A stretch of DNA of 64,000 nt from Trebouxia sp. TZW2008 (taxonomy: Eukaryota > Chlorophyta > Trebouxiophyceae > Trebouxiales > Trebouxiaceae): assembly GCA_002118135.1 (NCBI GenBank), contig BDIU01000226.1:62001-126000 (forward strand), read 5' to 3'. Positions 13,237-64,000 of this stretch are shown here, piece after piece; positions within the stretch are counted from its first letter, which is position 1, and each line of letters begins with the position of its first letter. Under the pieces are notes generated by a model, which saw only the letters and a list, made by a program, of their open reading frames with translations, had not been told where the DNA came from and ran no database searches. The position numbers and the translations under genes are program-made.

Positions 13237-16200
13237 ATGCGGGGAGATACAGGATGCAAAAGACGTGTCTTGTGTCTCCGATGTTTGCTGCAATCCGTCA
13301 TCCTGCTATCCGCTGTCACGCATGCCAGGGTGCAGACACCTCCCATGGGTCCGTGGCAAACAATGACCCAGCCAACTACAAATCAGCACACCTCCAGGCA
13401 CTTACTTGACATGTGCAAAAAACACTGGCGTGATACGACCTTGGACCACTTTTCATGGGTGAGCAAGACAAGTGGTCAGCAGTCTCCATGCAGTGCAACT
13501 TAGCTTCCAGGCAACAGTCTGCACAACACTCTGCAGGCACCACCTCCAGACGGCAAAAGAACTTACAGGCAAAGATACTATGTATGTGACCAGCACTGGC
13601 AAGGCAAAGCTGACAGTGATCCGAAAAAGGGACCAATCTTCTTCTATCTTGGCAATGAAGCAGATGTCACATTGTAAGCCAAATCTGATGCATTTCATGT
13701 GCAGCTCTTCTCCTTCTTCTTGACCTTTCCCAGACACTTCTGCTCAGAGAGACACATTCCTCACATGTCAACAGGTATCTCAACAACACGGGCCTCATGT
13801 GGGAGTCAGCAAAAGACTTTGGAGCGCTTGCGTTGTTTGCCGAGCACCGCTACTATGGCGAATCCAAGCCTTACACTGGCAAAGAGCTGAAGCAAAACAT
13901 GCAGTACCTCACAGCAGAGCAAGCTATGGCTGACTATGCTGAGCTGCTGACAGAGCTCAAGTCAGAACTGCAGGCAGAGCAGAGCCCTGTCATTGGCTTT
14001 GGTGGTTCCTATGGTGGAATGTTGGCAGCTTGGATGCGTATGAAGTACCCTCACATCCTGGACGGTGCTATTGCTGCCTCTGCTCCAATCTGGTGCGCCA
14101 ACTTTGCCTTGCCTGATACTGACTGCACCAAGCTTGAGGCAGATATCAAGAACATGCTTAATTGTTTGGCATACATCTCCAAGAAACGTCTGGTTTTCAT
14201 CTCACAGGAATGTCTGAACTCAGATCTCAAAGAAAGATGCAGACTTCAGACCTGTTCATTGGAAATTGGACGTGAACCAACCCCTTGTAGGGCAACGTTG
14301 AAGTTCTGATGTGTTTGTGGCAGCTATGCAGACATGCCAGGCTGGCAGGCATAGCCACAATGATGAGCAACTCATCAGAGTTCTTGTGTCAATCAGCAAG
14401 TCAGGCACTGGCGCTGAATGCTGCTCTGCTTGGCTTGATTACTCTGGTTTGCAGCGACTGTCTGTCAGAACTTACAGTGCAGCATTGCGCATGTTAGATG
14501 ATGTCAAATGTGTCCACAATACTTTGACCAAAACAGGTATTTTGTCAATGTCTTGGCCTTGCAGGGCGTTTCCAGGCGAGGACCCTCCTGTTGACAGTGG
14601 GGCTTTTGCAAAGATTGTGACCAGGGATGCCACTCCAGCTGGCGGTGCTGCATCAGCATGTGCAGGTCAGCCAACATTTTGTGACCAGAGTCAGCCATTT
14701 TGACGTATGATGTCCAGCTCAAATCTAGGCAGGTTGCTGTGTTGTGCATCACCTATACATATATAGATTGGTGGCTGTCTCATTTCTTCCGTATTACTTG
14801 CTGTCGACATCCCTGCAAAAATAACAGCATGCTCTGCTACATGCAGCACACTTGCATGCCGTGCAAATGACGTATCTTAGGGCATGGACAGCTGCAATGC
14901 GCAGCGCTCTGACAATACATCATGCTCTTGATGTGAGTCCTGCATCTGGCAGGATTGGCACACTTGTGTTGACTACATGTCACACTTTGACATGGGCAGC
15001 CTGATTACAGTAACCTCTTGATATGACCACTGCATTGCTCACCAAGAAAACTGTCTTTACATCAAACTGTCCTTACTCAGAAGTACCACTGTAGTCAGAA
15101 TGCAGTGCTTGGTTCCCAGTTGCATTGTCCTTGCATTGAAATTGCCCTTACATTAAGTGTCCTGATATCAAGAAATCTGAGGAGGTAGTAACACATCGTT
15201 GGGTCTATGTGAGCAAAGGGTGCAAACATGCTCCCTTCCGTGTATGCAAAATTCAAAGGCTATGGTAGACTGCAGAAGCAAAAAGCCGTGCTACCAAACT
15301 CTTAGCACGCCTATGATATGGAACAAGTACATGGATGTGTCAGTCTGGCTCTTGATGCAACTGTGTGGAAGCACAGGCAACGTGAGAAATGCCTGGAAGC
15401 TGTTGAAGGAATGGGGCAGCAATGATGAGGGCAGAGACCAGATCAGGGAAGCCCTGCAGCTGTGTCCTGCCGCTGATCTGGCGAAAGATGATGACGCAGA
15501 CAATCTGGCTCAGTGGGCGCAGAATGCATTTGACTATATGGTAATAACAACTCTTGTGAGTTATATCTGAGTGGACGTTGGCTAGTATAAGCTTAAGCAA
15601 CATAACTCTGTCTTGTAACTGCTGCTACACGCTGCATAAAGAGTTCATGTCTGGGTAGACTCCGCTGACAGCACCTCAGCTATGTTGGCACATGTGCTGC
15701 TTGGTGTACGTGCTGCTCGATGTCAATACACGCTGACACCTTTTCTACTGTTCATGTGAAACAGGGGCAGTCACATGAACGTGGACTCACAAGCTGCCAG
15801 ACATGAAGAATGTCAGAATGGGCATGTGTCAAATACATGATTGCGATCAAAGGAGTGGTGTTGCAACGGGAGAACTCTCATACCCTTCAGACTACATGTT
15901 GAATGGCATGGGCACTCTACCAGCCTAGAACACATAGAATAGGAACATTTCCAAGCCTTCAAGAGTTGTTTTGCACAGGCCATGGGAGACTTCCCGTACC
16001 CATCAGACTACATGTTGAATGGCATGGGCACCTTACCAGCCTACCCGATGCAAGCAGCCTGCCAGCCGCTGAGTCAGCAGGGCTTGTCCGGCCAGGCCCT
16101 CCTGGAAGGGCTTCGTCAAGCAATTGGCACCTTTTACAACTTCTCCGGCCATCTACCTTGCTACAACTACACTGAGGGTCCTAATCCTGAAGGCGATGAA

Positions 16201-18012
16201 GACAGCAACTTCTGGGACTATCAAGCCTGCACTGAAATGGTCATGCCTTTCAGCAGGAATGGCAGTAAGTCAACAGCCCTGCATTCAGTAGGAATAGCAG
16301 TGAGTTGACTGCTTTGCCCTAATCAGGAATGGCAGTAAGTCAACAACTCTGCATTGTTCAAGAATGGCAGTAAGTCCATAATTCTGCATTGATCACAAAT
16401 GGCAATGACTCAACAGCTCTGCATTGATCAGGAATGGCAGTGACTCAACAGCTCTGCATTGATCAGGGATGGCAGTAAGTCAACAGCTCTGCTTTGATCA
16501 GAAATGGCAGTGACTAAACAGCTCTGCATTGATCAGGGACGGCAGTCACCCAACGGCTCTGCATTGATCAGGAATGGAAATAAGTCAACAGCTCTGCATT
16601 GATCAGAAATGGCAGTAAGTCAACAGCTCTGCATTGATCAGAAATGGCAGTGACTCAACACCTCTGCATTCCCTGTAAGGGCACCGCTACATCAGCTCAA
16701 GACCAACACACAAGATTTTTATCTTGCTTGTAGCTTGACTTAGCTTACTTCTGCACTGCACTGCTTGTGCTCATCATTTGTTTTATGTGTCGCTGTGCTC
16801 GCCAATGAGACTAGTGATGTAGTACATGTGCTGAGTGTGGGTGGCACAAGCCCTTATACTGCGCTTGTCTTAGCTGAATGGAAGACGTCCATCAGAGTCG
16901 CAATGGAAAAGGGCATGGCTGAATGCTTGATGCATGATTGCTACATGGCTTAGCATGCACATTGCATGACAGAAGAAGTCTTGTATGCAGAAGATGACAT
17001 GTTCTGGAAACAGCCTTGGGACTTCAAAGCCTTTGCAAAAGAGTGCAAGAAATGGTGGGGTGTCACACCTCGCCCCTACTGGGCTCAAGTCAGGTCTGCT
17101 CCTGTCTCTATACTGCTGTTGTATGTCTCTTAAAAATGAGTGGACATAGCTTGTCAGCCTGCCATAGTGTGAATTGTCTGATGCTACTGGGGCAACAAGG
17201 CTTCTATGGCAGCCTGTGATCCCATACACAGGTCACTGACTACAGCCTTGCACAATCATTCTGCAGCAAATTGATGACCACATACAACCTTGCTGCTGTT
17301 GTGACTTTGGCTGTCAATGGTTGTGCTATCACATGGACAACTGGCAACTGGTTCACTGCATTGATGTCTATGGTGCTTAGATGACAAAGTGATGATGTCA
17401 ATCATGCCTTGCAAGAGTTGTGCTTGTTCAACAACACTATACACATCAATGCAACCTCATCATCAACTACCTTGTTGGGTTGCAGCTGGGGTGGTCGCAA
17501 GATAGGCACTGCCAGCAATATTGTCTTCAGCAACGGACTGTTGGATCCCTGGCATGGCTTTGGAGTTTTGCAGAACATTTCAGACTCTGTTGTGGCTGTC
17601 ATCATCCCGGAAGGCGCGCATCATCTTGATGTAAGTCTTGTCTAAACCTTGCTGACTTTTTACTTGCATGAAGCTGATCCAAGCTCTCCCTCATTACTAG
17701 TGTAAAAGGTCACTCTGCCTGTCAGGCACACTTCATTACATGATGATTTGCTGGATGCTGTGTCAGCGTGCTCCGGCGACACATTGTGTGCGCAGTTGTT
17801 TGCTTCAACTTGATGAGCTCCTGTGCATGCTTGTGTAGTTGCTGTGCTGGCCCTCCTTGGCTGCTCTGAGTTGATGCTTTCTGGTGCAGCTGATGTTCTC
17901 AAATTCACTGGATCCCCCCTCTGTCACAGAGGCTCGCAACCTAGAGCGGCAGTACATACGGCAATGGGTAGATCAAGCAAACAAGGCATCTGACAGAATG
18001 GCTTTGCAGTGA
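13237..18012 (+). CDS. S28 serine carboxypeptidase (lysosomal Pro-X carboxypeptidase type)
   Basis: Starts with a signal peptide (hydrophobic [20 protein letters not shown]), then LDHFSW, a family hallmark. Exons: 13237-about 13460; about 13535-13674; about 13775-14092 ([11 protein letters not shown] upstream, [11 protein letters not shown], and the nucleophile [13 protein letters not shown]); about 14563-14664 ([13 protein letters not shown]); about 15380-15540; 15979-16264 ([23 protein letters not shown]); about 16988-17092 ([12 protein letters not shown]); about 17487-17630 ([10 protein letters not shown] with catalytic Asp, [10 protein letters not shown] with catalytic His); 17890-18012. 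The triad is complete. The enzyme cleaves a C-terminal residue after proline in the vacuole, lysosome or secretory route. Introns hold a decayed copy of an exon start (about 15868-15930) and a 12-unit minisatellite made from a splice donor. Confidence 0.88.
15055..15150 (+). repeat. Dispersed repeat B, copy 1 (S28 gene intron)
   Basis: Shares aactgtccttactcagaag, gtagtcagaatgcagtg and gttgcattgtcctt with two other intronic segments at 20980-21070 and 47101-47205, all on the plus strand. No coding capacity. Confidence 0.7.
15863..15930 (+). repeat. Decayed duplicate of a downstream exon start
   Basis: The stretch from ggagaactctcatacccttc to accagcctag repeats the start of the real exon at 15979-16045 (cttcccgtacccatcagact onward) with a few substitutions. 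The copy hits an in-frame TAG where the real exon reads TAC. It lies about 110 bp upstream, within the intron. Confidence 0.8.
16254..16676 (+). repeat. 12-unit, 35-bp minisatellite carrying a splice donor
   Basis: Tandem units of about 35 bp (aggaatggcagtaagtcaac, then agctctgcattgatc). The first unit straddles the exon-intron boundary: aggaatggca is the last coding sequence (FSRNG) and gtaagt is the donor. Units 3, 4, 7 and 11 keep gcagtaagt; others have gtgact, gtgagt or a lost site. Confidence 0.9.
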
Positions 18013-18829: not shown

Positions 18830-21800
18830 ATGCCCGCAGCGTTGCTGACCTCCTTCGCGCCTGCAAGACCGTTTACAGCTGTTCAACCGACTTTCCAGCG
18901 CAGACTCGTTGTCCGTGCCAGCTCACATCAGCTGCATCGTGACAATGCAGCTTACAATTCTGCTGCAAAATGCAAGCAGTTTGCAGTGTCCAGTCGAAAA
19001 GCACAGCGCAAGATGTCAAGGGTCAGGCAAGTTCAGACAAGGGCAGGAAGTGACCCTTTGGTGCCGCTTGGGCTCGACTTTCTCACCTTTCTGGCAGCAA
19101 CAGTCCTGGTCATACCACTGTTCAAGTCTGTCAAGGCTTCACCAGTGCTGGGCTTCTTGTTTTCTGGACTCTTGCTGGGGCAACTTGGGTAAGGCTTCAT
19201 GGCTGAGTGCAATGTAAACAACCTTTGTCGCGGCCAGAGAATTCAATACCTTCCTGTTGTCATGCAGTCTTTTCCGCAATATAGAAGACATTCAGAAACT
19301 CAGTGAGCTTGGTGTTCTGTTTTTGCTGTTTGAGATGGGTCTTGAACTCAGCTTGGACAGGCTGAAGGTGAGTGCATGACAATGTCATGCTTTGGCATTC
19401 CTCAGCTTGATTGGCATATTCCTGTATGGCATGCAATTTTGATCACACATCTTGCCCAGGCACATACATAGCATGCAGAGTGTTTGAGGACACTTGTTTG
19501 CTCCAGCACATACCTAGCTGAGCCTGCTGAGCTTGTCTAGCATGTGTTTTGAATGAATGAGTGAATGAGGTTAACAGAATATGCTGGGTTGCACGCTGAA
19601 GGTCCAGTGTACATGCCATTCATGCCACATCGTTGTCACTTGCATTGCTTGTGCAGGCTCTGGCTAAGTTTGCATTTGGGCTTGGCTCAATGCAAATGGT
19701 GTTGTGCACACTAGCATTCACCTGTTTTGCCCTGCCAGTGGGGAACGGCATAGGAACACAGATCCTGGTCAAGATCTTCCACGCGCCTGTCAGCCTGGCC
19801 GCCATTCGCACAGTGGACGAGGCAGTGGTGATAGGTGCAGCCTTGTCACTCTCCTCCTCAGCCTTTGTGCTGCAGCTGCTATCAGAAACTGGTCAGCTGG
19901 GCTCGAAATTTGGGTCAGCTACACTTGGCATTCTGCTCTTACAGGTAATCAGCTTTGGCCAAAAACCAATTGTCCAGAGTCTGCTTTGTATGTTCTTAGG
20001 GATGCAAGCAAGTCACCTGCTACTGCTCTCAGCGCCAGCCACACAAAAGCCTATCTATAGAACATGACACTGTTGTATGTGCGGCATTCTTTCAGGCGTT
20101 CAGACTTCTTGAAAGTTTGTTAGTGTTTGCAGCAGCAGCAATGCATATCATGGCAATGAAGCTAGCTTACCACATGTGAATGCACGTGACTGACATGCAC
20201 AACCTTTGATCACTCCAGTACAAGTTCTGTCACTGCAGGACATAGCTGTGGTACCATTCCTGGTGCTGTTGCCATTTGTGGAAAAGAATGACCTGGCTGG
20301 AGAGAGCACACTAAGCCTAGTGTATGAGCTTGGCCCAACAGCGTTGAAGACACTAGGCAGTCTGGCTGCCTTGTTGTTTGTTGGGCGGCTGGTCATGCGG
20401 CGCCTGTTTGAGCTGGTTGCAGAGTCACGCAGCGACGAAACCTTCATCTCATTGTGTCTGTTGACAGTCACTGGAGCCGGCCTTCTGACACAGAAGCTCG
20501 GCCTGAGCGATACTCTAGGTATGCACTCCACACTGCTGTGGGGCTATCATGATAGTATGATGGCATAGATTCTGAGCTTGACAGCTTGAATGACAATTGC
20601 CGCAGCATGTCATGGTGATTGCCTTCTATACCTGACAGCATGTATGCCAGTCAACATAGCATGGCAGATTCAAGTGCCCAAGTCAGTCTTTGGGTTTCCC
20701 AAGTGCTTGCTCCAGCTACTCAGCTGACGCTGCCCCTCGCACAGATTAGTCTAGGACATACCAGCATTTATGCTGCTTTGAACATCAGCTCATGGATGAG
20801 CGCAGCTCACGGTTTGACGTGCTGATTGGCTTGCTTGCATGCAGGGGCTTTCTCAGCAGGAGTGTTGCTAGCTGAGACAAACTACAGAACTCAGGTACAG
20901 CAGCTGCTGCTGCTGCTGCATCTCTGGCTGCATACACTCATTAAACTTTGTAATGACTGTGTTGGCTCCCAACAGACATGTCCTTATATCAAACTGTCCT
21001 TACTCAGAGCTTTCACTGCAGTCAGAACGCAGCAATTGAATACCAATTGCATTGTCCTCACATCAGGACAGAGTAATGCAAAAGTTGACACCATGGTCAT
21101 AAGTATAGGCCCGACGACAATTGCTTGACTGGCTTTCTTTTTGCATCACCCTATTGTAGACACTTCAGCTGATTTGCTGAAGTACAGACATACAAGTCCT
21201 CTTTCCAGCCAGTTTGCATCTGTTCAACAGTGATTTGTGTCATTGAACTGCCAAGCACAATGAACAAAATGATGAACGTCAGAATAGCTAGTAGAACCCT
21301 TGACCTCCGATTTTCAAACCGTTGCTCTACCACTGCAGGTTGAAGCTGACATACGCCCCTTCAGAGGCATCCTGCTGGGTCTCTTCTTCGTCACAACTGG
21401 CAGCAGTCTGGACTTGGGCCTGCTGTTTCAGCAGTGGCCTATTGTGTTGGCCCTCACGGGCGGTCTGATTGCTGTCAAAGTGGGCATCATTGGCAGCGTG
21501 GCACCCTTATTTGGCTTGAACAAGTGAGTGCCCATCATCCTGTTTCAGTGGCCTATTGTGTTGGCCCTCACAGGCGGTCTGACTGCTATCGACTGCTGTC
21601 AAAGTTGGCATCATTGGCAGCGTGGCATCCCTCTTTGGCCTGAACAAGTGAGTTTATTTATCTCATGGCCAAGCAGCTGAGGCTTTATAGTCTGTCTCGT
21701 TCATTGCTCCACACATGCACCTGATGTGCAGTACCTCAAGGCTTGCTTACACATTTTCAGCGCAAGCCTGCTTGCGCTTTGTCTTGAATTCAGAGCTAGA

Positions 21801-24672
21801 GTGACGGCAGTCAGCATGTGCTAGAATAATAATGCAAACCTTCTTTCCAACAATGCCTATGTGGAGGAGACATTGTTGGTAAGAACAGTTGCATGCCATG
21901 GCCGTACCTTCAGCGCAGAGTTATCCACAGAACGTCAAGGATGGTCAGAGGCGTCACAAGTCACAGGCAATTGACCACATGATAGCGCTGCGCATCAGCA
22001 GCAGCTCAGCAGTCTGTGCAGCACAGCTCTATTTGATCTCAGCTCAAGCTAGGCACAGTTGTACCGACCCAACAGGTGGGGTGCACAGCCAGTTGTATTG
22101 GACATCACAGATTGCCATCAGACATTGTTGAGCATGTGACTGAAGTTGTGGGCATGCAGGGGGGAGTCAGTGCGCACTGCCTTCATGTTGGCACAGGGCG
22201 GCGAGTTTGCCTTTGTGCTGCTCAGCCTTGCATCTGAGCTGAAGGTGCTGCCTGTGGAGCTGAACAAGCTGTTGATCATTGTGGTGGTGATCAGTATGGC
22301 CCTTACACCGGGCCTTGCCTCTGTGGGCAAGTACCTGGCAGAGAAGGCAGATGAAGCTGATGAGGCTTCCTCAGGTCAGCTTGCTGCACTTCAGCATTGT
22401 TATGCTGTATCGTGTGCGTTTTCATTGTGGGTACTTGCTGAACAAGCTGCTGATCATTGTGATGGTGATCAGCATGGCCCTTACACCGGGCCTGGCCTCT
22501 GTGGGCAAATATCTAGCAGAGAAGGCAGACAAAGCTGATGAGGCTTCGTCAGGTTTGCCTGCTGCATCATCGTCTATGCTTGCTAGCATGTTCAGAGTCT
22601 TTGTTGCAGCCTGATGAGCATGCTCTGATGAAACTCCTGTCATTGGGTAGGTTGCATCAGCAGCAGCTACATTTGCACTTCTTGGTCTTATTGCTTGCTG
22701 GGGGTCATTCAGGACCCTTGCTCCTCAAACGCACCATATTGACTGCTGCTATTATCAGCTAGTGACTGCTACAATTCAGACAATGGACACAGCACACACA
22801 GGCTGTATGCTGCAGCAATGACCAAAAAGTCAGCTGATGGTGGTTCGCCCTTGCTTGGAGAACCGCGTTTGCAAAACTGGCTGCATCACAGGACACCATT
22901 CAACATCACATGATTGTGTATGTACAATGTGGACTTTTGCTGGTGTAGGGCAAGACCCAGCAAGCATAGGCGCAGGGGCACGTGACATGCGGCCTGTGGT
23001 CATCTGTGGCTTTGGGGAGCTGGGCCAGTCAGTGGTGAACATGCTGGAGAGCCCCCTATCTCAGACTCTGGAGCGGGGCCAGGTGCCTTATGTGGCTTTT
23101 GACCTGCAGCCAGCACGCATCAAGGCTGCCAGGGCTGCTGGCTTTAACGTATTGTATGGGTGAGTGCTGCTTCTCTATCCACAATGGCAGTGATATGCAT
23201 TGCAATGACGCTTTTGATCCGGGCTCAAGGCGACATAAGAGGCTGGGGCTGCATCTGCTGCTTCCGCATGCATGCAGAGCCTCAATATGTGTGACAGTGT
23301 CCACAGCAAGGTAACAAAGGCTTATGCACTCATACACAAAGTGTGTGGGTGACGTGCTGTGTCATGCAGCACCCTTCAGACATGTCCAGACATGTTTGAG
23401 CAAGCGTCAGCTGTCAGCACCTGGCTTCATCATGTTTTGCGGTCTGCTGTTGAGACAAGCAGTCAGATCTGATGCATGTCATGCATTACCCAGGTGGGCT
23501 GCAAGGCCAGGGTGAGAGTCAGCACCTTGAGGAGCGAGCAAGATACAATGAGTATTTGTGCTGTGCATGCAGGGATGCATCGAGGGTCTCGGTCTTGCAC
23601 GCTGCTGGAATTGAGCAACCTAGAGCGCTTGCTGTGGTTTACACAGCCAGGGGTCGGCTGGTGTCCACAGTGCATGCTTTAAGGGAGGCTTACCCCAATG
23701 TGAGCCCTTCACCCTGCCTTTGCATCTGCAGTCGCACATGCAGCATCTCTGTTATTGTGTGCTGCACAATGCAGCACTCAGTAGCGCAGTGCGGTGCGCT
23801 TCAGCCACCGCCGTAGGTCAAGGCATTACGTGCTGCTGTACGGCAAGCTACCCTTTAGATACATTTTCATTCTCAAGCAATGCCTCAAAGCAGCTGAAGA
23901 TGTACCTGGTGCATGACATGATCAGATACATCAAAAGCTGCAGCTTCAGGTACGTGTCGCAGCAATGCTGTTGAGCCTGCTTTGATAAGTCGGGCAAGGC
24001 GTAGTGTCCACTAAACGTTGCCTGTTGCAGGTGCCTATTTATGTGCGTGCCCTGGACTTGCGGCATGCTGGAGAGCTAAAAGCAGCAGGCGCAGATTTTG
24101 TGACAGCTTCCACAACAGAAGCTGGCATGGCTTTGGGCAGCCGCATGCTGCAGGAACTGGGCGGCAGAGAAAACGACATCGCTGGCCTGACGAGAGCCTT
24201 GCGCAAGCAGCTCGACGCCAGATCACATGAGATGATGCAGATCCTCAGAAACGAGCTGCCAGCACCAGCCATCACGGTGTCTGAAGAAGACGAGGTGTTT
24301 GTCTTTGACCAAGGCGCAGTCAGTAAGGCTGATTTACCCACACAGGCGGCTTTGGCCACACCACAGAAGAGCACGATAGCACCTAGAGGTCAGGAAACTG
24401 CAGCCGCCATGGGTTTGCAAGAAGCGCCTGCTGATCAGCCTGTCGTGGTCACTAAGCAGCCTCATGAGGAGAGAGCGACTGCAAGCAAGATGTCACCTGA
24501 AGCTGAAGCAAACAGCAACCACAACAACGGGCCGCTGACTGATGAGCAGCTGCGGGTGAAGTACAGGGATGGGTCTGACTCATGCCCTATTGATGACAGC
24601 AAGGAGAAGGAGACAGATAAGGAAAAGGAGAAATCACATGCTGGCGCTAAAGCTGCTGATGACAAGCAATAA
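18830..24672 (+). CDS. KEA-type K+/H+ antiporter, plastid-targeted (CPA2 + RCK/KTN domain)
   Basis: Residues about 1-60 are Ser/Arg/Ala-rich, as in plastid transit peptides (MPAALLTSFAPARPF). Ten exons with consistent phases: 18830-19188, 19268-19368, 19657-19944, 20239-20518, 20845-20894, 21339-21523, 22160-22374, 22949-23160, 23573-23699, 24031-24672. They encode a CPA2 membrane domain (VLGFLFSGLLLGQLG; FLLFEMGLELSLDRL; the Na+/H+ exchanger helix TVDEAVVIGAALSLSSSAF; AGVLLAETNYRTQ; ADIRPFRGILLGLFFVTTG) and then an RCK/TrkA-N nucleotide-binding domain (VVICGFGELGQSVVNML, AFDLQP, YVRALDLRHAGELKAAGA). The tail is hydrophilic and charged. KEA proteins exchange K+ for H+ at the plastid envelope or thylakoid; I cannot choose between KEA1/2 and KEA3. 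Two exons are followed by partial tandem copies of their own 3' ends. Confidence 0.9.
20980..21070 (+). repeat. Dispersed repeat B, copy 2 (KEA gene intron)
   Basis: Contains aactgtccttactcagagc, gcagtcagaacgcag and attgcattgtcctcacatca. The ends (tgtccttatatc and acatcaggaca) are loosely inverted, hinting at a small mobile element, but this is weak. Confidence 0.7.
21421..21655 (+). repeat. Tandem copy of KEA exon 6 end plus donor
   Basis: The exon end 21424-21523 (from ctgtttcagtggcctattgt to the donor caa/gtgagt) recurs at 21541-21655 with the donor again intact. The copy has a 10-base insertion (around gactgctatcgactgctgtc) that breaks its frame, so it cannot substitute as coding sequence. 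Confidence 0.9.
22254..22560 (+). repeat. Tandem copy of KEA exon 7 end plus donor
   Basis: 22259-22376 and 22438-22556 are near-identical; both encode LNKLLIIV(V/M)VISMALTPG through the ADEASSG region and end at cag/gt. The copy keeps an open frame, but the sequence before it is not the exon's own upstream half, so only the 3' part of the exon and its donor were copied. Confidence 0.9.
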
Positions 24673-42923: not shown

Positions 42924-42994
42924 ATCTGCAACACGCGCAGAACATGAGACCACCCTCGTGTCTACAGCGCGCAGGACATTGCTCTGAATCGAGC

Positions 42995-45900: not shown

Positions 45901-48900
45901 CAGCGGCCGCAACCATCGTATTCAGCCCTGGAGCAATGGCTCAGACCCAGGTTTTATCAGCTGGTAAGTAACGACAATCGTGATATGCTCATGGCATAGA
46001 TGCAGACTGTGTTGATCTCAGCTGCTACTGATCATTTTGGGCAGCACAGACGCACACAGCCATCATATCCTGCGCTCAAGCAATTGCTATGGCCCAGCTT
46101 CTACAGGCTGGTAAGTGACAGCAAACTGTTGAGCGTATGGCACAGATGTGTCTTATATACTTATACTGGCTGCTACTGATTGTTTTGGGCAACACATGAG
46201 CACACAGCCATGGAATTCTGTGCTGGAGCAATGACTAAGGCCCAGATTCTGCCCCATGATACATGACGGCAGGTAATTGTGCTGAGCTCATGGCACAGAT
46301 GTGACTTGTTTCACTATGTCATAGACTGCATGCCTGAATTTCATGGAGATATAGTCATTGCCATGGTGTGGCACATGTGATCAGCCTTGTTGGCTGGCTA
46401 AAGCATGTAAAATTGCTCTCTCTCTCTCTCTTCATTGGTATTGACTGCTACTGACCGGTTGGGGCAACGCAGATGCAGGTCGCCATTGTACTCTATGCTG
46501 GAACAATGGCTCAGGACAAGGTTCTATCAGTTGGAAAATTCATGAAGTAGTCCTGTCAAGTCCATAATAATGTCAATTCGATTTTGAAAGACTTTGTGTT
46601 GCAGAATAACAATGACAGTCCACTGGCGCAAATAGCACAACCTGCACGTACAAGATATGAAACCATGCAACTGAATTAGCAAGTTTGCTCAGAGGAATGC
46701 GCCTCTGAGGTGCTCAAAGATGCAGCCAATGCCAATGCCTGAAACAACTCAACAGCTGCGAATGCTCAGTTTCTAGCACTGGAGCTGGCTACCTCTTTTG
46801 AGCAGCATAGATGCAAATTCCTCTGCCCAAATAGCTTGCTTGTGCAGCTGCGTCCATCTATCGTGACTGCAAAGCTTGCGTATTTTCTCATCCAGAACAC
46901 AATCCTTGTATCCAACCCACATGCATACTGCACAACTGTCAGCAAGCCTACACTCTCACTCTCTGATACAGCTGCTGCATCACAAGGCATGCAGAGGTGG
47001 CTTCCTGTAGCAAATTTGCTTCACTTGTAGGGCTCCCAATGCACCTGTGCCATCACTTCTCTTTCAACAACTGCTTTGGTTATCAAGAGAATCGTCCATG
47101 CATTGATTTGTCCTTACTCAGAGGGAACGACTGCAGTCAGAATGCAGTGATTGGTTCCAAATTGCCTTGTTCTTACATCAGGAGCGTCCTTACATCGATT
47201 GTCAGTACAAACAGAAGTTACTGTTCCTCTGGCAGCAACATCGCAGTGTTAGTCAGCGCATGTCACTGCAGGGAGTGGTGTGTGGTGAGCAGCCATATAA
47301 GGTGCTCACTGTATGTGTGCTGGTGATTGGGCTCTGCTGCCTGGGGCTTCTACGCTTTGATGTGGAGACAGATCCACAGCGGCTGTGGGTGGGCTCAGGC
47401 TCCCTCGCAGCCAGAGAAAAGGCACAGTATGAGGTACAGTGTCATTGCTTGCCTGTTGCCACCTGCTATACCTCATGCACACGTCACTGTGAGTGAGACA
47501 TGTGGCACATACTGCACCTCAAACGCCTCATGCACATGTTATGGTGGGTGACATATGTGGGACACACTACACCTCAACTAGTGCCGATTGTGTCACACAG
47601 GACATACCCATGGCTTGCTGACAAAAGTCTGACAGAGGGAATGTCAGGCATAGCCAGAGTTGAGATGCGTGTGTGCTGGTATTTGCTTTGCCAAGCTGGC
47701 TCTTGTCGCCTGCCTCTAAACGCAGTGGCATGGCAGCCTGGCAGTCTGGCAGATTGCCCTCGCAGTTGTGTCAGTACTTGCATTGATGCTGCTAGAGCCT
47801 TATACCCTTGCTGCTACAATCTGTAGACTGTCCTGCCAATGCCACTGCAAATTGCCCACTGCACTGACCGCTCCATCAAGTCCGCACTTTCCTGTTGACA
47901 CTGGTGGGACATGAATGCAGGCCTCCTTTGGTGCTTTCACCACTTTCTTCATTGTCACCGTTTGTGAAGTGTGCTTGCAGGCATCTTTTGGTGCTTTCTG
48001 GCGCATAGAGCAGCTGCTGATCACCACCACGCCAGACACACAGCCCTCCACCAAGAAGACTGCCTCAGGCCTGCCCCCAATCATCACCTCAGACCGCGTA
48101 CACGACCACATCAGGTGGCTGTTTGACGTCCAAGCTGAAGTGGACGCCCTCTCAGTCCCTTACACGGATTCAGCCACAGGCCAAACAGCCAATGCGACCC
48201 TGGAAAGCATCTGTTTCAAGCCTTTAGGGGGTGCCTGTGCAACCGAAAGTGTATTACAGTATTGGCAGATGGACCCTAAGCTCTATCCCAGGCCATCTCC
48301 TGACTTCTGTTTTGGGCATTGGTCGAGCGCTTGTAGGAGCGCTTTTGAGTCCCCCATTGACCCCCACACCGTCCTTGGGGGGTTCCCTACTGACAACACC
48401 TTCAGGAGCATTGCTGAGGATGCCACCAGCTTTGTTGTGACCTATCCTGTGGACTCTTCACCAGCAAACCGGTTAGTCTTCAGTCACAGTCATGTCATTT
48501 TCATGTCATTGTTCCAAAAGACGTTGTATGACTATAAGATGCATTTGAATTCTGTATGACAGATGCAACCTCTGCATGTGGTTCAGCAGACAAACAGCTC
48601 AACTGCATGCTGCATAGATTCAGGAATCAGTTGTCACGGGCATCCTCGTGCGTTTCTCCTAGCGCTTGTTGGCTTCAGCATTGGCCAGCAGCCAGGAGAC
48701 ATACATGTGCTGAGCAGTTTTTATCATGCTCATGCCTATACCTTGCATAGTGGGTTTGGCAGAGCAGCATAGCCAAGAGTATAGCATTCACAAGGAGCCG
48801 CAAGGTTGTCAGTGCTATTGCACCATGCGCCCAAAGCATTACTCTCAACCTTACACCAAGGTCATGAAGGCTACATACAGTCCATGTGTGGCTTACAAAC

Positions 48901-51900
48901 CCCCTGCTGAACAGTCACAGCCAACATGGTCTATGCAGCATCACTGTCTTTGCTGTGCAGATATTACATCAAAGCAGTTTTTAAATGACCGGTGTTGATC
49001 TTGCTTGCAGGGATGCAGCGCTTGCATGGGAAGCAGCTTTCCTGCATCTGGCACAGACAATACTCACAGACATGGCGTCCAAAGCCAACCTGAAGCTGAG
49101 CTTCTCCTCAGAGCGCTCAGTGCAAGATGAGCTAGCTCGAGAAACCACCTCGGACTCAGTCACAGTCGCCGTATCCTACTTAGTCATGCTGCTATACATT
49201 GCCCTTGCGCTGGGTGCGCTACCGGCGGGCTCTTCTTCTTGGGCTGTGCTGGTGCATAGTAGGGTGGGGGTGGGGCTGACTGGGGTACTGATTGTGGGGT
49301 TGTCTGTGTTGGCTGCATTGGGGCTGTGCAGCCTGTTTGGCATGTGGGCTACTCTTATCATTCTGGAGGTGGGCACCTTTCTTCCGCAGGACAGTTTTGC
49401 AATAGCTGTGCAACACCATGACCACATGAAATTAAACTTTTGAACACAATGCATGTGGGCCACTCTTATCATTCTGAAGGTGGGCATCTTTCTTCCTTGA
49501 GACATGTTTCCAATAGCTGTGCAACATGATGACCACATGAAGATGAGATTGTTGAACAAGACGCTTGCAGCAATTTTATCGTTTTGGAGGTGGGCACATA
49601 CATATTCAAGACATGTTGTTGATAGCTCTGTTACACTTTATGAACAATGCAATCATTTCAACCTTGTTGAGAGTGCAAATTGTGCCCCTTGTGAGAGCTC
49701 AGCTTTCCAAGGTTTGCATGGCGACACAAGTATTGTTTTCGTCATGCTGCTGTCAACTCTGGATTCTGCAATACCCTGCAAAGTTGTTCATGCCTGCGCG
49801 CAGAGAGGTGATTTAATGTCATCAACTGCTTTGACTAAACTAGCGAGGACCCACGTGTTGTCTGGAGCAATGTTTGCAAAGTTGAGTGTCCCTCAGGTGG
49901 AGCTATCTGCAGCGTGTGATGCTTGCAATGCATTGGTCAGTCTGTTCAATGTAACTAAGAAAGTTCTCTTCAGTGCAGGTCATCCCATTCTTGGTGTTGG
50001 CAGTGGGTGTGGACAATATGTTCATCCTGGCACATGCACTACAGCAGCAGGAGCCTGATCAGCCCATCCCAGAAAGGCTGGGGAGGGCTCTAGCAGCAGC
50101 AGGGCCCTCTATCACATTAGCAGCAGCCTGTGAAGCCCTGGCTTTTGGCCTTGGAGGATTGACTAGCATGCCTGCTGTGCGCAACTTCTCCCTGTGTGCG
50201 GCTGTAGCGGTGCTGCTAGACTACGCCCTGCAGATGACTGCTTTTGCAGCACGCTTGGCTTTGGACTGTCAGCGTGTGCAATCTGGTGCTGTGGACTGTG
50301 TTCCCTGCATTCAGCTTAGCTCAGAGAAGCTGCAGTCAGCCACAACAGCTATACCAGATGGCACAGATGTGCCTGGCTCTAAAACCATGCCTGGCTCCGA
50401 GACCATGTCACGCCGCATAGATGTAGCTTTGTCTCAGATGCCTAGCGCTGAGTCAGCACCTCTGGAGCCATCAGTCATCTCAAATGCAGATCCTGCTGAC
50501 TTGTCACCGCCAGACTTGCATCCGCCTTACAATGGCACAGACGAGTCAGAGCGCCAGTCACTGTTCAAGACAATTGGGCAGTCACTCACAGGCAGACTGA
50601 ATGGCAATGCAACACATGGGAAGTCATCAGGGGGGCGAGTGAGGGGTGCAAGGGGGGTCAGGGGGGTGACCCCAGCCCTGCACTGGTACATGGAGCAAGT
50701 CCATGCACCTGTGCTTGCACAGCCACTGGTGCAGTTGGTGGTGTTGGGTGTCTTTGTGGGCCTGTTCCTGCTGTCCTTGGCGGCCATACCGCATGTCTCA
50801 AGGTCCGCTCTTGCTGTACACGAGTTGCAGACATATGCTGCACTTGTCTTCTGCTGCCAAGATCATTGCATAGCATCTGCATGCTGATGCTTGTGACAAC
50901 CAGCATAAGTTGCACAGGGCAAATCCAACAAGCAGCTCTGCGCTTTTGTTGTCCATTAAAAAGCTCTGCATTGCTTGTATCTGTCTCTTGCATCCAATCC
51001 CATGCATGCACTGGCAGTGCCATGCTGCTTGTTCGAGGTGCATCTGCCAAAGCAATGCAGGTTTGCTGATATGACAGTGTCGTCTGTCTGCAACAGCACA
51101 CCTGCTGTCTGCTCTACACTCACAAGTGCGTTTTGCAATGCTTGTCATTGGCAGCTCACAATGCTTTGAAATAATATGTCTCAGCAAGCAGCTGCACCAT
51201 GTCTAAGTGGTCTCAACAGCTCACTGCTCAGTCTGATTGCTTCAGGGGCTTAGAGCAGCAAGTTGCCCTACCAAGGGATTCATACCTGCAAGACTACTTT
51301 GCAGACCTGTATGGGCTGCTGCGCGTTGGGCCGCCCTTATATTTTGTGGTGCCTGACATTCACATGGACCCAGACCAGCCTGACATAAATACAATCTGTT
51401 CTGTGGGAGGCTGCAATGATGATTCATTCATCAATGAGGTGCAGTCTCATGGCTTTGTGGGCTTGTCACTGTACATCTGGCATTTCTGACATGCACATAG
51501 AGCCAAACCAGCCTGACATCAATACAATCTGTTCTATGGGATTGTGCAATGATGTGTCATGCATCAATGGGGTGCAGCTTCATGGCTCTTTGGCGTTAAT
51601 GAATCTGTGGATATCTCAAGTTTGCGCGGTTTTACATGCTACTTCAGTTGTGACTGTATTGCTTGTTGCATTCATGGCTCTGTATCCCTGTGACTTTACT
51701 GTATTTTGCCAGTCTTGACGTGCTATTTCAGCTGTGGCATCACTGCATTGTTGCCAAGGCCAAAAGATGGTGCCAGCACATAGTTGAGCCCAGTTAGCAG
51801 AGGCGATCACAGACAGCCCAAGTCAGCAAAAACTGTAGTTGATCATTGTGTGTTGATGTTCACATGCTAGTGCTGCACGCTTGTAGGTGTCTGCTGCTGC

Positions 51901-54630
51901 CCAAGACTTAGGCCGCACCTTCATAGCTAACCCAGCAGCCAGATGGCTGGATGGCTTCCTATCCTGGATCAGTTCTGGGCTGCTCTACTGTTGTAGAGAG
52001 CATCCTGCTGGCAGCCAGTGCCCCTCCTCCTGACCAATCCTCTTGCAATGCATATTTTGTACCCAGACACCTTGCACTGGTACTGAATCTTTCAGTGCTT
52101 GTGCTGCATGGTTGCAGGTGTCTGCTGCTGCCAGAGACCCAGGCCGCACATTCATAGCGAACCCAGCAGCCAGCTGGCTGGATGACTTCCTGTCCTGGAT
52201 CAGTCCTGGGCTGCCCCACTGCTGCAGGGAGCACTCTGATGGCAGCCAATGCCCCCCGCCTGATCAGTTCCCCTGCAACACATCAGCCTCTGCCTGCGCT
52301 GATTGCACCACCTGCTTCTCCACTGGCTCTGGCCCAGACCCACATCACCTGTTGCCAAACAACCGCCCCACCTTGTCTCAGGTAAGCAGCCACTATGCTT
52401 TCATGCATAGATTCTGATTGGTTCCCTCTGGCGGCCAGCAGTGTCCCCACACCTGACCAATTTCCTTGCAATACATCAGCTTCCGCCTGTGCTGACTGCA
52501 CCACATGCTTCTCTGCTGGCTCTTGACCAGACCCACATCACCTGTTGCCAAACAACCGCTCCACATTGTCACAGGTGGGCAGCTGTCATGCTTTCATGCT
52601 TGCACTTGTAGCAGTATCACAGTGATGCAGTCAATGCGCGTCGCTTGATTTCTTCCCCTACAATACATCAGCCTCTGCCTGCGCTGATTGCGTCACCTGC
52701 TTCTCCACTAGGTCTGGGCCAGACCCGCATCACCTGTTGCTAAACAACAGGCCAACCTTGTCTCAGGTGGGCAGACTTAAACGTAGCCTCCATGCCAACT
52801 ATCAAACTTTATGTGTGCTGATGTCTAGGAGCATCACATGCCTGCAAAGGCTTGCTTTTGTGGCCCACTGGGAAACAGGCGGTTTGGCAATGTGCGCCTG
52901 CTAATGGGCCATGTTGATTGTGCAACATGCAAAACGCTTTACCAATGATATGACCTGTATATGCTTACATTCAACGCATTGAATTCCACATTCACAGGAG
53001 CAGCTGCAGCGCTGGACTTTCCATGATGTCAGCATCAAGGTCACTCTGTGCCTGGCTGCAGTATCATACCTTTTGAACTGTGTAGCCGCCAGCATCTTGT
53101 GCAGACTTTGAGGCAACTCTCTTTGCAGAAGCCTATAAGCAGTATCATTCTTGCTCGGGCTACAAGGCATATAGGGTCGCTTGCCCTAGTGCTGCAACAC
53201 CATTTCCCGTAAGGTGCATACTGCCTTGCTGCAGGTGCAGGAGAAGCTGCCTTGGTTTCTGAAGGCTGTGCCATCAGCAGAGTGTGCCAAGGGAGGGGTC
53301 GGGGGCTACAATGATGCCCTGCAAATGGACTCAGCTGACTTCACAGGCATAGCAGGCCTTACTGATGGCAAAGTCGCAGCGTCTAGCTTCAGGACGTATT
53401 ATGTGCCCTTGAACACACAGCAGGACTTCATCAATGCATACCAGGTGAGACGCTTCTGACTTGTGAACGCTTGTTTCATGCCCATTTGCTTGGGAAAAAC
53501 GACACCTTCACATGCTGGACTCGACAATTGTATGCCGACATGCAGCAAGCTAGCTGGCAGTGTCTTTGCCAAATGCCTAGCCTTTGTGTCTTGTGCATGG
53601 GGACCATCGCTATGCGATCTTGTGTACAAGTATATTTACAGTGGTGCAGAGAATGCAGACTTTGTCATTGTCATGCAGGCTGTCCGTGACTTCACAGAGG
53701 CTGTAAACAAGAAGCTGGGAATCAACATGTACCCCTATTCAATCTTCCACATCTTCTTCGAGCAGTATCTGTACGTGGTGAAGAACAGCATATGGCTCTT
53801 GGGAGGAGCCCTTTTGGGTGTCTTTGCAGTCTGCTGCCTCTTCACATCAAGTGTCTGGGCCAGCAGTATCATTCTGCTTGTAGTGGGCATGATTCTGATT
53901 GACCTACTAGGCGTCATGTACTTGTGGGACATTCAGCTGAATGCGGTGTCTGTGGTCAATTTGACCATGGCATTGGGCATTGCTGTTGAGTTCTGTGCGC
54001 ATATTGTGCACGCTTTCTTGGTGACTGCTGGGAGCAGGCTACAGCGCATGCAGGCAGCCTTGCAGGACATGGGTGCTTCTGTTCTCAGTGGCATCACCAT
54101 CACCAAGTTTGTAGGTACGCCAATTTGCTGTTCATGCTGCTCACTGCATTCAGCAAAACTTGGTAGACACAAAACTGCCGCATGCATCTTTCTCCGCGGC
54201 ATCACCATCACCAAGTTTGTAGGTGAGCTGATCTGCTAGTAGGCAGGCTGTTGAGCTATGCTGCTCACTGCATTCAGCGAGTTGACACAAGATCGCTGCA
54301 TGCATCGTTCCTGTCTTCTGCATGTGCCTGCAGTTCCTTCGACCAAAGTTGCTATAACAGGCGTCATTGTACGTGGCTGCTTGCTGCAATGCATTGCTGT
54401 TGTGGCTTGGATTGGCATTCTGTAAGCTGTGACATGAAGTCCGCTGATTATATTGACCTGCAGGGGTCTTGGTCCTGGCTTTTGCAAGGACTCAGATCTT
54501 CGAGGTGTACTTCTTCAGAGCGTATTTTGGTCTTGTCTTGCTGGGAGCCAGTCATGCCTTGGTGCTGCTGCCTGTTTTGTTGGCCTTGGTTGGGCCTCCA
54601 CAGCGGCAGCATGTGGTGCAGCTTGCTTGA
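42995..54630 (+). CDS. NPC1-like sterol transporter (Niemann-Pick C1 / RND family)
   Basis: Moves sterols from lysosome/vacuole lumen to membrane. Signal-peptide exon 42995-about 43067 (MMHPFILTALVILSLHQTV). N-terminal Cys-rich domain: about 43340-43567 (GVCALYGVCGHR, YCCTEEQIDTL), 43951-44111 (IGCPACDHNFKHFFCTLTCH), 44285-44339, 44723-44987 (FKCSCGDCPDAPTC), 45428-45616 (Pro run, then a membrane helix). Then about 45853-45963; about 47275-47433 (LLRFDVETDPQRLWV); 47984-48471 (SFGAFWRIEQLLITTTP); 49010-49370 (start of sterol-sensing domain); about 49978-50802 (VLAVGVDNMFILAHALQ, SITLAAACEALAFGLGG); about 51247-51436; 52117-52380; 53235-53443; about 53679-54110 (MTALGIAVEF-like MALGIAVEFCAHI); 54463-54630 (FARTQIFEVYFF). 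Full domain order of NPC1. Introns carry at least seven clusters of splice-junction duplicates. Confidence 0.88.
43608..43940 (+). repeat. ~60-bp tandem repeats in NPC1 intron 2
   Basis: Five units start with cattgac at 43663, 43721, 43781, 43839 and 43883, each followed by a variant of catccagactgcattttcac. The array ends immediately before the acceptor of the next exon (catgcag at 43944-43950). Confidence 0.8.
44570..44720 (+). repeat. Imperfect tandem repeat in NPC1 intron 4
   Basis: Two to three degenerate units of about 50-70 bp sharing ctttgtcatga and gtggtcag/gtagtcag, directly upstream of the acceptor at 44722. Not derived from the adjacent exon as far as I can see. Confidence 0.55.
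45890..46545 (+). repeat. Four copies of an NPC1 exon end plus donor
   Basis: The true exon end (gagcaatggctcagacccag, then gttttatcagctg/gtaagt, 45930-45968) recurs near 46040-46117, 46190-46278 and 46460-46540 at about 150-bp spacing. Each later copy has stops or lost donors, and similarity falls with distance. Dispersed repeat A is inserted between the third and fourth. Confidence 0.85.
46309..46431 (-). repeat. Dispersed repeat A, copy 3, inside the NPC1 gene
   Basis: Reverse complement of the unit at 10419, ending in the (CT)n tract that corresponds to the (GA)n start. It sits within an array of exon-end duplicates. The spacing between flanking array units is about 270 bp rather than about 150, the difference being the length of the repeat, so it looks like an insertion into the array. 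Confidence 0.8.
47101..47205 (+). repeat. Dispersed repeat B, copy 3 (NPC1 gene, beside an exon)
   Basis: Contains ttgtccttactcagaggg, gcagtcagaatgcagtgat and ttgttcttacatcagga. It ends just upstream of the NPC1 exon encoding VETDPQRLWVGSGS. Confidence 0.7.
47485..47590 (+). repeat. Imperfect tandem repeat in NPC1 intron
   Basis: Two units of about 60 bp: gtgagtgagacatgtggcac, then atactgcacctcaa, and again ggtgggtgacatatgtggga, then cacactacacctcaa. Each starts with a donor-like gtgagtg/gtgggtg. Confidence 0.6.
47909..48012 (+). repeat. Duplicated acceptor and exon start in NPC1
   Basis: Gaatgcaggcctcctttggtgctttc (47914-47939) recurs as the real exon start at about 47976-48002 (cttgcaggcatcttttggtg onward). 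The upstream copy retains an AG acceptor, so two competing 3' splice sites lie about 63 bp apart. Confidence 0.8.
49329..49600 (+). repeat. Three copies of NPC1 exon end plus donor
   Basis: The exon end with donor (tgtgggctactcttatcatt, then ctggag/gtgggc, 49342-49376) recurs at about 49453 and 49570 with about 115-bp period. Intron sequence is copied too (caatagctgtgcaacaccat, then gaccacatgaa). The nearest copy is much the closer match. Confidence 0.85.
51352..51585 (+). repeat. Duplicated NPC1 exon end
   Basis: The segment gacattcacatggacccaga through gaggtgcagtctcatggctt (51356-51457) is repeated at 51488-51583 (gacatgcacatagagccaaa onward) with substitutions; both can be read as DxHxxPxQPDINTICS. 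Confidence 0.85.
51885..52245 (+). repeat. Upstream decayed copy of an NPC1 exon with its acceptor
   Basis: 51888-52045 copies 52117-52272 (both start tag or cag/gtgtctgctgctgcc, then the reading RTFIANPAA and WLDxFLSWIS). The upstream copy runs into a TGA after a small indel at about 52027. Confidence 0.85.
52295..52775 (+). repeat. Three copies of an NPC1 exon end plus donor
   Basis: The exon end (cccacatcacctgttgccaa through ttgtctcag/gtaagc, to 52385) recurs at about 52455-52580 and 52660-52772. Each copy keeps cag/gtgggc as donor. The second has a stop (tcttgacc), while the third keeps the exon's original codon spacing in its last part. Confidence 0.85.
54083..54235 (+). repeat. Duplicated NPC1 exon end plus donor
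   Basis: The sequence ggcatcaccatcaccaagtt, then tgtaggt, appears at 54090-54117 and again at 54198-54225. Flanking intron sequence is shared as well (tgctgctcactgcattcagc at 54136 and 54259). Confidence 0.85.
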
Positions 54631-58455: not shown

Positions 58456-58741
58456 GTGTGCATTCATATCAGCACTGTTTTGTACACTTTGTGCCATAGC
58501 ATCTGTACTGTTCACTGCCTTGCCAGTTGTGATCACCAGCCATTCATAAAACCTTAGAATAAGTGGAACCCTTTGAATAAATGATTAAGATGGGCCAGAA
58601 TGTCACAGGACTTAATAGACTAATAGCCTGCTATTCAGGAATAAGTTTTGTCCAGTCCAACACTGTTACCCTTTTTCCCAGTAGCATGTACTGATCATTC
58701 GGTTCACACAGAAGTAGTGTTGATGTGCTTAACTAAAGGCT
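58456..58741. other. Convergent intergenic region
   Basis: Short 3' region shared by the SET gene and the next minus-strand gene; nothing coding is seen. Confidence 0.5.
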
Positions 58742-62167: not shown

Positions 62168-64000
62168 TTAGTCAGACATGTCTGTCACATCACTGCCTGC
62201 GTCTGATGTGTCTGACTCAAAGTCAGAATCCTGAACATACGCTGTGCCAATAGTTCGCTCATTGGCAGCAACATTGGCAGCAAGTAAGGATGGAGTAGCA
62301 TTTGAGGTACTAAGCAGCGCCTTGCGCTCCTTGCACAGCTTGTCCCTGATGGCTTTTGCTGTATCTGCCTCATAGTTGCAGATCTGTTCCAAAGGCACTT
62401 GCGCCATTGCATCAGCAGAACCGTCAGAGGTCCAGAATACCTGCTGCATTGCGGAAATGCCTCTTTGCACACTATCTTGCAATGACACTGCAGCAGCCTT
62501 GCGCGGGCTATGTCTGCTCTGTAACCAGTCAAAGATTTTGGGCTGTAACTCTCCCCAGACCCCGTGGAGCAAGAGATGTGACCCACTGCCCTGACAGCAG
62601 TCATCCAGAGACTCCTGCCAGGTTGTGCTGCATTCCACTGCAGCACTGCTGTCACTGCACAGCGCTGCCTTAAGCTCCTTGATGCACTTGCCAAGCTCAG
62701 ACACTGATGATGCCTGTCTAACGGTCTTTCGCCAGCCGTTTCGCTTGCCTTTCCAGTGTTTGCGCACTGCTGTCCATGGTACAGAATCCTCAACCTCAAC
62801 AAGTTGCTTTTGCACAGTTTCCAACACTTCATGCCGCTGCAGATTGCCAGGTAGACTGGCGGCACTTGCGGGCCTGCTGAAGCCAGAACTAGGCAAGGCA
62901 ATGTCTGAGAAGATGCCATTTGTCAATGTTGGCATGCTGAGTCCTCCGTTATTAGGCCTTGCACTGGTACTTGGAAGAGCTGCACAAAAGCATCTAGGAT
63001 CAATTGATGACCAGCAAGTATGCAGGCACAGCTCTAGCCAAAACATGCATGATGAATTCACTAAAGCAGTTGAGGACCTGAGCGCTCCACTGTTGTTAGG
63101 CCTTGCACTTGCATTTGGAAGTGGTGCACGACACCATCAAGGATCACTTGACATCCAGCAAGCATGCAGCAGCAGCTCTAGCCAAAAGGTGCATGGATCG
63201 AGTTCACTGTAGCAGTTGAGGACCTCTGTGCTGAAATTGCCTGATCACAGCCTGATAAAAAACTTGCTTTGCAAATGGCTAATGATTGTTTGTACATGGA
63301 CAGGTAGAAGTGAGCTTGAGCTTTACCTAAAGACATTGGATGCGAGGTTTCCAGGAAGATGTCTCCTTCCAACCCAAAGCCATCCAGATCATTGGGAAGT
63401 TCTGGAAAGTCCATCAGAGCAGCTGCACTAGAAGTTGGCTGCTGCTGTAGCATGCCGCTTGAGGAAGGATGTGCAGGGTCTGATTGCACCACTCGTCCAG
63501 GCTCTATATGAGCCAGATAGCGCTGCTGTACTTGCTCATTGAGCCTAAGTGCTGGAATGAACAGATTTACCCAGCCATTGGTCAGAACCTGAGTCACTTG
63601 TCCTTCTTTGCCTACAACACCTTGGTTCATCTTACGGCTAGCACTTGTCACAAGGACCCTGCACACAATGCCCTGTGTCACAGAACTGCAGAAACCTTGT
63701 GTTTCCATCATGTCCCTTAATGTGAATGATGCCTTTCCGCAATCAGGCCAAGTGAGTCTGTCCGCAGCTGAGGATGATGTGAGACACCTTGTGTTTGCGC
63801 AAGAGATGTCAGCATCATGAACAGGTGTATGACTGTCACCTGTCGCCTTCTTTGAAGTCTCGCCCACCAAAGTGAGTGTGACTTGGTGAGGTGCCTGTGT
63901 TTGGAGTGTCCGAGGCAAAGACTGCCTGCATTTACATAATGTGTGCTTAGATATGATTATTTGCAGCAATGCCAGGCGGTGAATGCACTCTGTTGCTGCC
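62168..64000 (-). CDS. C-terminal part of a large hypothetical protein (5' end beyond right edge)
   Basis: Two exons joined in phase: about 63929-63328 and about 62986-62168. The first encodes LRDMMETQGFCSSVTQGIVC, GKEGQVTQVLTNGWVNLFIP and DFPELPNDLDGFGLEGD. The second encodes QKQLVEVEDSVPWTAVRKHW, then KRNGWRKTVRQASSV and WQESLDDCC. It ends in an acidic Ser/Asp tail (DFESDTSDAGSDVTDMSD). The Trp-rich helical section loosely recalls the WHIM/DDT region of plant chromatin remodeller partners, but I would not name it. The acceptor of the last exon lies in a tandemly duplicated segment. Confidence 0.55.
62942..63240 (-). repeat. Tandem copy of an exon start and its upstream intron
   Basis: Two units of about 145 bp: 62957-63097 and 63098-63240 (each starts ttaggccttgcact on the plus strand and runs to gcagttgaggacctg/ct). 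On the coding minus strand the downstream unit has the working acceptor gtgcag/ctcttcc; the upstream unit reads gtgcaccacttcc and has lost it. Confidence 0.85.

Follow-up and report, generated by a model that had tools for sequence, protein, structure and literature searches.

The window analysed here is a stretch of 64,000 nucleotides from the green alga Trebouxia sp. TZW2008 (contig BDIU01000226.1, positions 62,001 to 126,000). It carries genes for an S28 peptidase, a KEA-type antiporter and an NPC1 protein, as well as a further gene at its right edge, and the introns of all four hold nearby copies of the end or the start of an adjoining exon together with its splice site. The gene names are backed by Pfam domains (Peptidase_S28, Na_H_Exchanger plus TrkA_N, and sterol-sensing plus NPC1, respectively). 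Identity to proteins of relatives was 85% for the S28 peptidase (Trebouxia sp. C0006, across 81% of its length) and 76% for NPC1 (Trebouxia sp. C0004), whilst the antiporter shared 90% identity with a metagenome protein, 86% with its counterpart from Trebouxia sp. C0009 and 76% with the Astpho2 record, read as Asterochloris. The GC content of the window is 0.47-0.54 in 2-kb windows. Published Trebouxia genomes are 63-74 Mb in size with 49.6-51% GC (PMC11523091, PMC12712428) and several strains of the genus have been sequenced (PMC11523091).

Exon-edge copies in the introns of the window

Exons and introns were predicted by a simple hidden Markov model, self-trained on the sampled DNA alone. 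The sample comprised 288 kb in 22 pieces (the window and pieces within the series L003-L025), picked by contig number rather than at random, from a 68.5-Mb genome in 527 contigs. This yielded 43 genes and 429 introns (median exon 136 bp, median intron 327 bp), with TGCAG/G as the learned acceptor. GC donors were numerous among the predicted introns (71/429, as called by the gene finder only). Junctions in the window, and only these, were also checked against the proteins of relatives, which pass uninterrupted through eight copy-bearing junctions (15540/15979, 16264, 21523, 45963, 49368, 51438/52118, 52381 and 54114), showing no insert when compared with the gene model.

A sequence-only reading of the window had listed twelve sites at which an intron contains a copy of the adjacent exon edge. 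All twelve hold such a copy, and 11/12 were recovered as significant direct repeats when the window was compared with itself (Table 1). The remaining site, 47909-47939, is a 23-bp match lying 60 bp upstream of a second acceptor, with 21/23 identities and a score of 36, above the best of 20 shuffles (25). Whilst the sites stood, the edges first given for them did not: the true ends lie from a few to ~85 bp away, the copy given as 54198-54225 in fact spanning 54183-54310. The gene finder sets exon ends or starts at the listed copies. In the array derived from the S28 peptidase exon end, the first unit contains the used junction (16264/16265) and at least one later unit lacks the GT. Two exons called inside copies (47921-47968 and 22520-22552, the latter in a poorly conserved stretch) have no equivalent in the relatives used for comparison, and the gene finder has probably over-predicted here. 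This amounts to a practical warning for annotation, since exons were called in at least two copies and other gene-prediction software may behave similarly.

Table 1. Local copies and repeats in the window, with the exon edge to which each corresponds.
Position	Strand	Feature	Counterpart, offset and identity	Junction and remarks
15868..15927	+	Acceptor-side copy, start of S28 peptidase exon 15979-16264	15984-16043; copy 116 bp upstream; 88%	No insert in relatives' proteins
16254..16673	+	Array of twelve 35-bp units from S28 peptidase exon end plus donor		Validated by relatives
21540..21653	+	Donor-side copy, KEA-type antiporter exon end	21423-21529; offset 117; 83%	21523 validated; copies nearly abut
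22437..22566	+	Donor-side copy, KEA-type antiporter exon end	22259-22388; offset 178; 90%	Predicted exon 22520-22552 in copy, lacking in relatives
43606..43939	+	Tandem repeat, entirely intronic, no exon link	Offset 117	Local repeat absent from the earlier list
46057..46537	+	Several donor-side copies, NPC1 exon end 45963	Offsets 147, 295 and 570; 69-83%	Validated
47916..47938	+	Acceptor-side copy, 23 bp (exon start preceded by TGCAG)	47976-47998; copy 60 bp upstream	Both acceptors used by gene finder; segment present once in relatives
49451..49630	+	Donor-side tandem copy, NPC1 exon end 49368	Offset 111; 77%	Validated
51486..51593	+	Donor-side copy, NPC1 exon end 51438	Offset 133; 84%	Validated
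51865..52048	+	Acceptor-side copy, start of NPC1 exon 52118-52381	52096-52278; offset 231; 84%	51438/52118 validated
52445..52774	+	Donor-side copies, NPC1 exon end 52381	Offsets 193 and 386; 76-85%	Validated
54183..54310	+	Donor-side copy, NPC1 exon end 54114	Offset 109; 71%	Validated
63086..63225	-	Acceptor-side copy, right-edge gene	62942-63079, spanning boundary of predicted exon 62197-62979; offset 144; 81%	Gene finder only

Frequency and size of local duplicates

Across the sample, matches shorter than 30 bp and low-period repeats (identity >0.65 at shifts of 1-7) were dropped before counting. This left 95 clusters of local direct repeats, compared with 0 in a single order-1 Markov resample of the same 288 kb. 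Chance similarity is ruled out by this comparison, in agreement with the initial view that the pattern is too frequent for coincidence. Local inverted repeats amounted to 19 pairs grouped into 6 places, one of which lies in a predicted intron of the window (36816-36879 and 36980-37043, 64 bp, 84% identical).

An offset below 300 bp was found in 93/95 clusters (median 144 bp, 5th-95th percentile 72-238 bp, 98% within 60-260 bp). These fell into 52 linked clusters, in which one copy lies in an exon and the other in an intron, 17 with an exon called in both copies, 16 that were intron-only, 6 that were exon-only and 2 that were intergenic. Linked pairs occur on both the donor (24/52) and the acceptor side (28/52), and the exon-side part of the alignment extends into intron bases in 44 of them, being purely exonic in 8. 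The two copies abut or overlap in 16 linked pairs, hereafter abutting pairs; in the other 36, hereafter spaced pairs, they are separated by a spacer of at least 20 bp for which no clear match is seen across the pair. Since the aligned copies of linked pairs are only 69-95% identical, the duplicates are probably not an artefact of assembly, and assembly duplication was rejected as their source.

The pattern reaches beyond the window, as the sequence-only reading had supposed, with a linked or part-exonic pair in 21/22 sampled pieces. Such exon-intron pairs are present in 78/429 predicted introns (~18%). With 69 linked or part-exonic pairs across the 288 kb, the density is ~24 recognisable pairs per 100 kb, or about one per 4 kb, and is the same in the six pieces taken after the pattern had been noticed (14 pairs in 60 kb) as in those taken earlier (55 in 228 kb). 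Introns with local duplicates are longer than the rest (median 520 bp, n = 89, compared with 291.5 bp, n = 340), bearing in mind that long introns also offer more room. The same reading had proposed a process that lengthens introns from their junctions. Copies that are real, frequent and widespread, in introns that are longer, agree with this, but action at the junctions specifically did not find the same support (see below).

Larger arrays were also seen. A 122-bp unit (99 bp of predicted exon and 23 bp of intron) is repeated at ~91% identity in L019:2261-3100, where an exon may have been repeated or a young array miscalled as exons, and a 2.2-kb intron stretch at L013:5595-7844 is built of a ~201-bp tandem repeat with ~69% identity.

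Placement of the duplications and fate of the copies

We consider it probable that these pairs result from frequent short tandem duplication with little or no regard for exon-intron structure, followed by selection and decay. Short tandem duplications, with offsets in the range seen here, would arise often across the genome, and would often cross a junction because the exons and introns are themselves short. Units that are intronic or cross a single junction would be nearly neutral, since the original exon is still produced if the outer junction is spliced; such units would persist, decay and lengthen the intron by one unit. Units internal to an exon would survive mainly if in frame. In a junction-crossing pair the intron part would drift away whilst the constrained exon part stayed recognisable, and old events would resemble isolated exon-edge copies with splice sites because the exon part outlasts the drifted intron part. 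The direct orientation and the offsets of 60-260 bp fit fill-in or end joining at staggered breaks, or replication slippage, and one of these may be the source.

The clearest sign of an untargeted origin is that duplicates within exons are mostly in frame. Offsets are divisible by three in 5/6 exon-only clusters, albeit a small number, compared with 18/52 linked and 6/16 intron-only clusters. A first reading, in which random placement alone explains everything, was weakened by neutral simulation. The visible linked share is 52/68, compared with 46%, 49% and 51% in the simulations, a highly significant difference; the settings used (an exon rate of 0.3, the range of ages and the proportion of indels) were our own choices. 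Part of this excess is due to exons preserving one copy, the exon part being recognisable for longer because one of its two copies is under selection. In an exon-blind test, exons were masked and repeats found from the remaining sequence, giving 54 clusters of which 52 were intronic. Units running into an exon numbered 19/52, compared with 30.7% in simulations (p = 0.37), or 23/52 if any exon contact was counted (p = 0.049). Abutting units alone comprised 16 linked and 11 intron-only, compared with a simulated 386 to 506 (43% linked, p = 0.12), and the exonic share in these 16 linked units was compatible with a uniform distribution (Kolmogorov-Smirnov p = 0.21). The share of duplicates at junctions is near the untargeted expectation, and a modest junction bias is possible.

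Targeting of duplication to junctions, whereby boundary breaks, R-loops or template switching at splice motifs copy an exon edge and its splice site into the intron, would account for the linked share above the neutral simulations and for the excess in some exon-blind variants. It would also fit the spaced pairs, in 29/36 of which the similar block ends no more than 28 bp from the junction, the exon-side end being variable. However, the main exon-blind test gave no significant excess, the in-frame duplicates within exons show that the process is not limited to junctions, and the exonic share of abutting linked units is compatible with uniform placement. Moreover, untargeted simulations also give blocks with no more than 28 bp of intron in 73-92% of cases, compared with 31/36 spaced pairs observed. 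We therefore regard junction targeting as rather unlikely. A small chance is also allowed for an active, lineage-specific process of small duplications that is biased two- to threefold to splice junctions and largely builds the introns of Trebouxia. If this were true, introns would grow from their edges, each step leaving behind a spare splice site ready for use, and the full series from exon-edge copy to new intron would be legible within one genome.

Spaced pairs may represent decayed tandem pairs. Homology of the spacer to the flank predicted by a tandem unit was detected at p<0.05 in 8/35 spacers, compared with 1/35 for the control flank (Wilcoxon p = 0.015), an earlier and cruder test having given p = 0.14. 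Median offsets were 155 bp in spaced and 131.5 bp in abutting pairs (p = 0.08), and the exonic share of the unit was alike in both (p = 0.30). An indel-rich neutral simulation produced 68% spaced pairs, compared with 36/52 (69%) observed, with blocks ending near the junction in both. A comparison of 45 spacers with the 288-kb sample recovered only further local copies or weak short matches. Alternatively, plain tandem duplication could be joined by a second process, in which an exon edge is inserted from a template ~20-185 bp away (for example by repair of the polymerase-theta type) and the spaced pairs arise directly. The spacers lacking an obvious counterpart (36/52 linked pairs) and the sharp block ends point this way, as does a 95% identical pair (L019 1061-1135) that still has an unlike spacer. 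However, the spaced and abutting pairs are similar in offset and exonic share, the spacers show faint tandem homology, and local inverted copies are found in only 6 places, though templated insertion should give them. On balance such a combination is improbable; it was retained as a rival because half of the significant spacers hold further local copies.

The reading frame was assessed in 50/52 linked copies, the other two having too little exon. Frame breaks had initially been ascribed to most copies; they do occur, but only in half, with 25/50 broken by a stop or frameshift and 25 intact. There were 10 stops in 1028 codons, and 18/50 copies carried a frameshifting indel. Mismatches between copy and exon fell at 12.7, 10.2 and 24.7% of first, second and third codon positions, respectively, the third-position excess being 2.1-fold in spaced and 2.3-fold in abutting pairs. 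This pattern and the broken frames fit a decaying copy next to a constrained exon. The splice dinucleotide is retained in 37/45 readable copies, compared with 29.6 expected from overall identity, and the copies do supply spare splice sites, as first suggested. The excess over expectation is mild, and alignment selection could also produce it. A second splice site at the exon-side end of the copies was not above background, either donor-like (2/23, controls 9%) or acceptor-like (0/13, controls 13%), and the copies are therefore not cassette-exon-like.

Gene conversion from the exon could have kept old copies alike whilst the rest of the unit drifted. Spaced and abutting pairs are indeed alike in size and exonic share, yet the intron part of spaced pairs is nearly unrecognisable, and simulations with slowed decay of the copy best match the linked share. 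However, identical stretches are not clearly clustered into conversion tracts (mean longest run 18.2, compared with 16.9, sd 0.7, in shuffles), and frequent indels in introns might explain as much; we hold conversion to be improbable too, if anything slightly more so than templated insertion. That the copies are functional alternative exons, either cassette or mutually exclusive, is very improbable. The third-position bias of differences and the retained splice dinucleotides speak for it, and in a few copies almost all differences are at third positions (1/0/10 by codon position at L020 2866-2925), but cassette exons as a general answer are ruled out by the broken frames, the missing second splice sites and the relatives' proteins, which lack the copied segments in the window.

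Untargeted tandem duplication followed by decay, the explanation that we favour, nevertheless has a number of results weighing against it. The visible linked share lies above all three neutral simulations, and was matched within error only when the decay of exon copies was set four times slower than that of introns (67%, p = 0.12). In the exon-blind test, units ran into exons more often than simulated when matches were restricted to at least 60 bp (16/36 compared with 26%, p = 0.02) or at least 80 bp (13/31 compared with 24%, p = 0.03). In 36/52 linked pairs the rest of the unit is unrecognisable, though the exon copy is often 80-95% identical, and once 8 spacers with additional local copies are set aside, the spacer homology falls to 4/27 compared with 1/27 (p = 0.06). 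The indel-rich simulation reproduces the share of spaced pairs but fails on that of linked pairs, and indels inside the exon copies are rare (29 events compared with 512 mismatches), fewer than that simulation assumes. Finally, the third-position excess is higher than expected of a purely neutral copy.

Known systems and the origin of introns

Internal tandem gene duplication crossing exon-intron boundaries is the closest known kind of event, and in kind the duplicates described here are not new. Gao and Lynch, in 2009, reportedly described tandem duplication within genes that crosses such boundaries. The likeness is that partial-gene tandem duplication leaves extra or new intron sequence, and the difference is that ~18% of predicted introns (78/429) are involved here in one algal genome. 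This density seems unusual and may be new, an impression gained with only the Trebouxia sample run through the pipeline.

In a potato RdRp gene, an intron was gained by tandem duplication across the boundary of intron 1 and exon 2, a single duplicated unit holding the end of the intron and the start of the exon (PMC4974935). There a new intron resulted, whereas the Trebouxia cases examined mostly lengthen an existing one. The tandem genomic duplication model of intron gain (PMC3443670, citing Hellsten et al. 2011) is similar in that duplicated splice signals make the added DNA removable. However, it needs an exonic AGGT segment, whilst the Trebouxia unit usually crosses an existing junction. 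Direct repeats of 4-30 bp have been described in pairs close to both intron borders (PMC11782384); the repeats in Trebouxia also lie at intron borders, but consist mostly of 30-140 bp of exon edge inside the intron. As for a source, fill-in of staggered breaks by Pol alpha-primase/CST generates small tandem duplications in mouse and human cells cut by Cas9 (PMC8355091), and these may be analogous, being short, direct and independent of repeats or homology.

Introners likewise add intron sequence, but form dispersed families (PMC9860276). Introner-like spread was not found when two copy-bearing introns were searched against the 68.5-Mb genome (in a search that skips very common words), each matching only itself and its own local copy. 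Within the scope of this search and of the comparison of the 45 spacers with the sample, dispersed repeats or introners were rejected as the source of the copies. Among the open-licence papers listed in literature searches, none reports such copies in Trebouxia, judged by title or the start of the abstract. In two Trebouxia genome papers (PMC12712428, PMC11523091), the word "tandem" occurs 0 times in both and "intron" once and 0 times, respectively.

Two dispersed repeat families are present in the window as a separate observation. One, of ~140 bp, lies on either strand in predicted introns (10375-10560, 1794-1911, 46307-46437); scoring of 40 among 449 candidates gave at least 41 genomic matches. 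For the other, of ~120 bp (15020-15140, 20965-21058, 47067-47183), there were at least 40 matches when 40 among 1238 candidates were scored.

The surroundings of the donor resemble those of the acceptor in 13/342 introns of at least 110 bp (score 20; 0.0 expected), at least one of which ends at a probably over-predicted exon. Since an over-predicted exon would produce such a resemblance too, these 13 are no more than candidate new introns. A 434-bp predicted intron at L009:7116-7752 is filled by a ~179-bp repeat that reaches both flanking exons (74% identity), and is a candidate for an intron formed by tandem duplication from coding sequence.

The growth and origin of introns are debated partly because traceable cases are few. 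The Trebouxia pairs would provide a natural set of duplications differing widely in age, from which one could measure the rate at which introns lengthen, how spare splice sites decay and what proportion of duplications become new introns.

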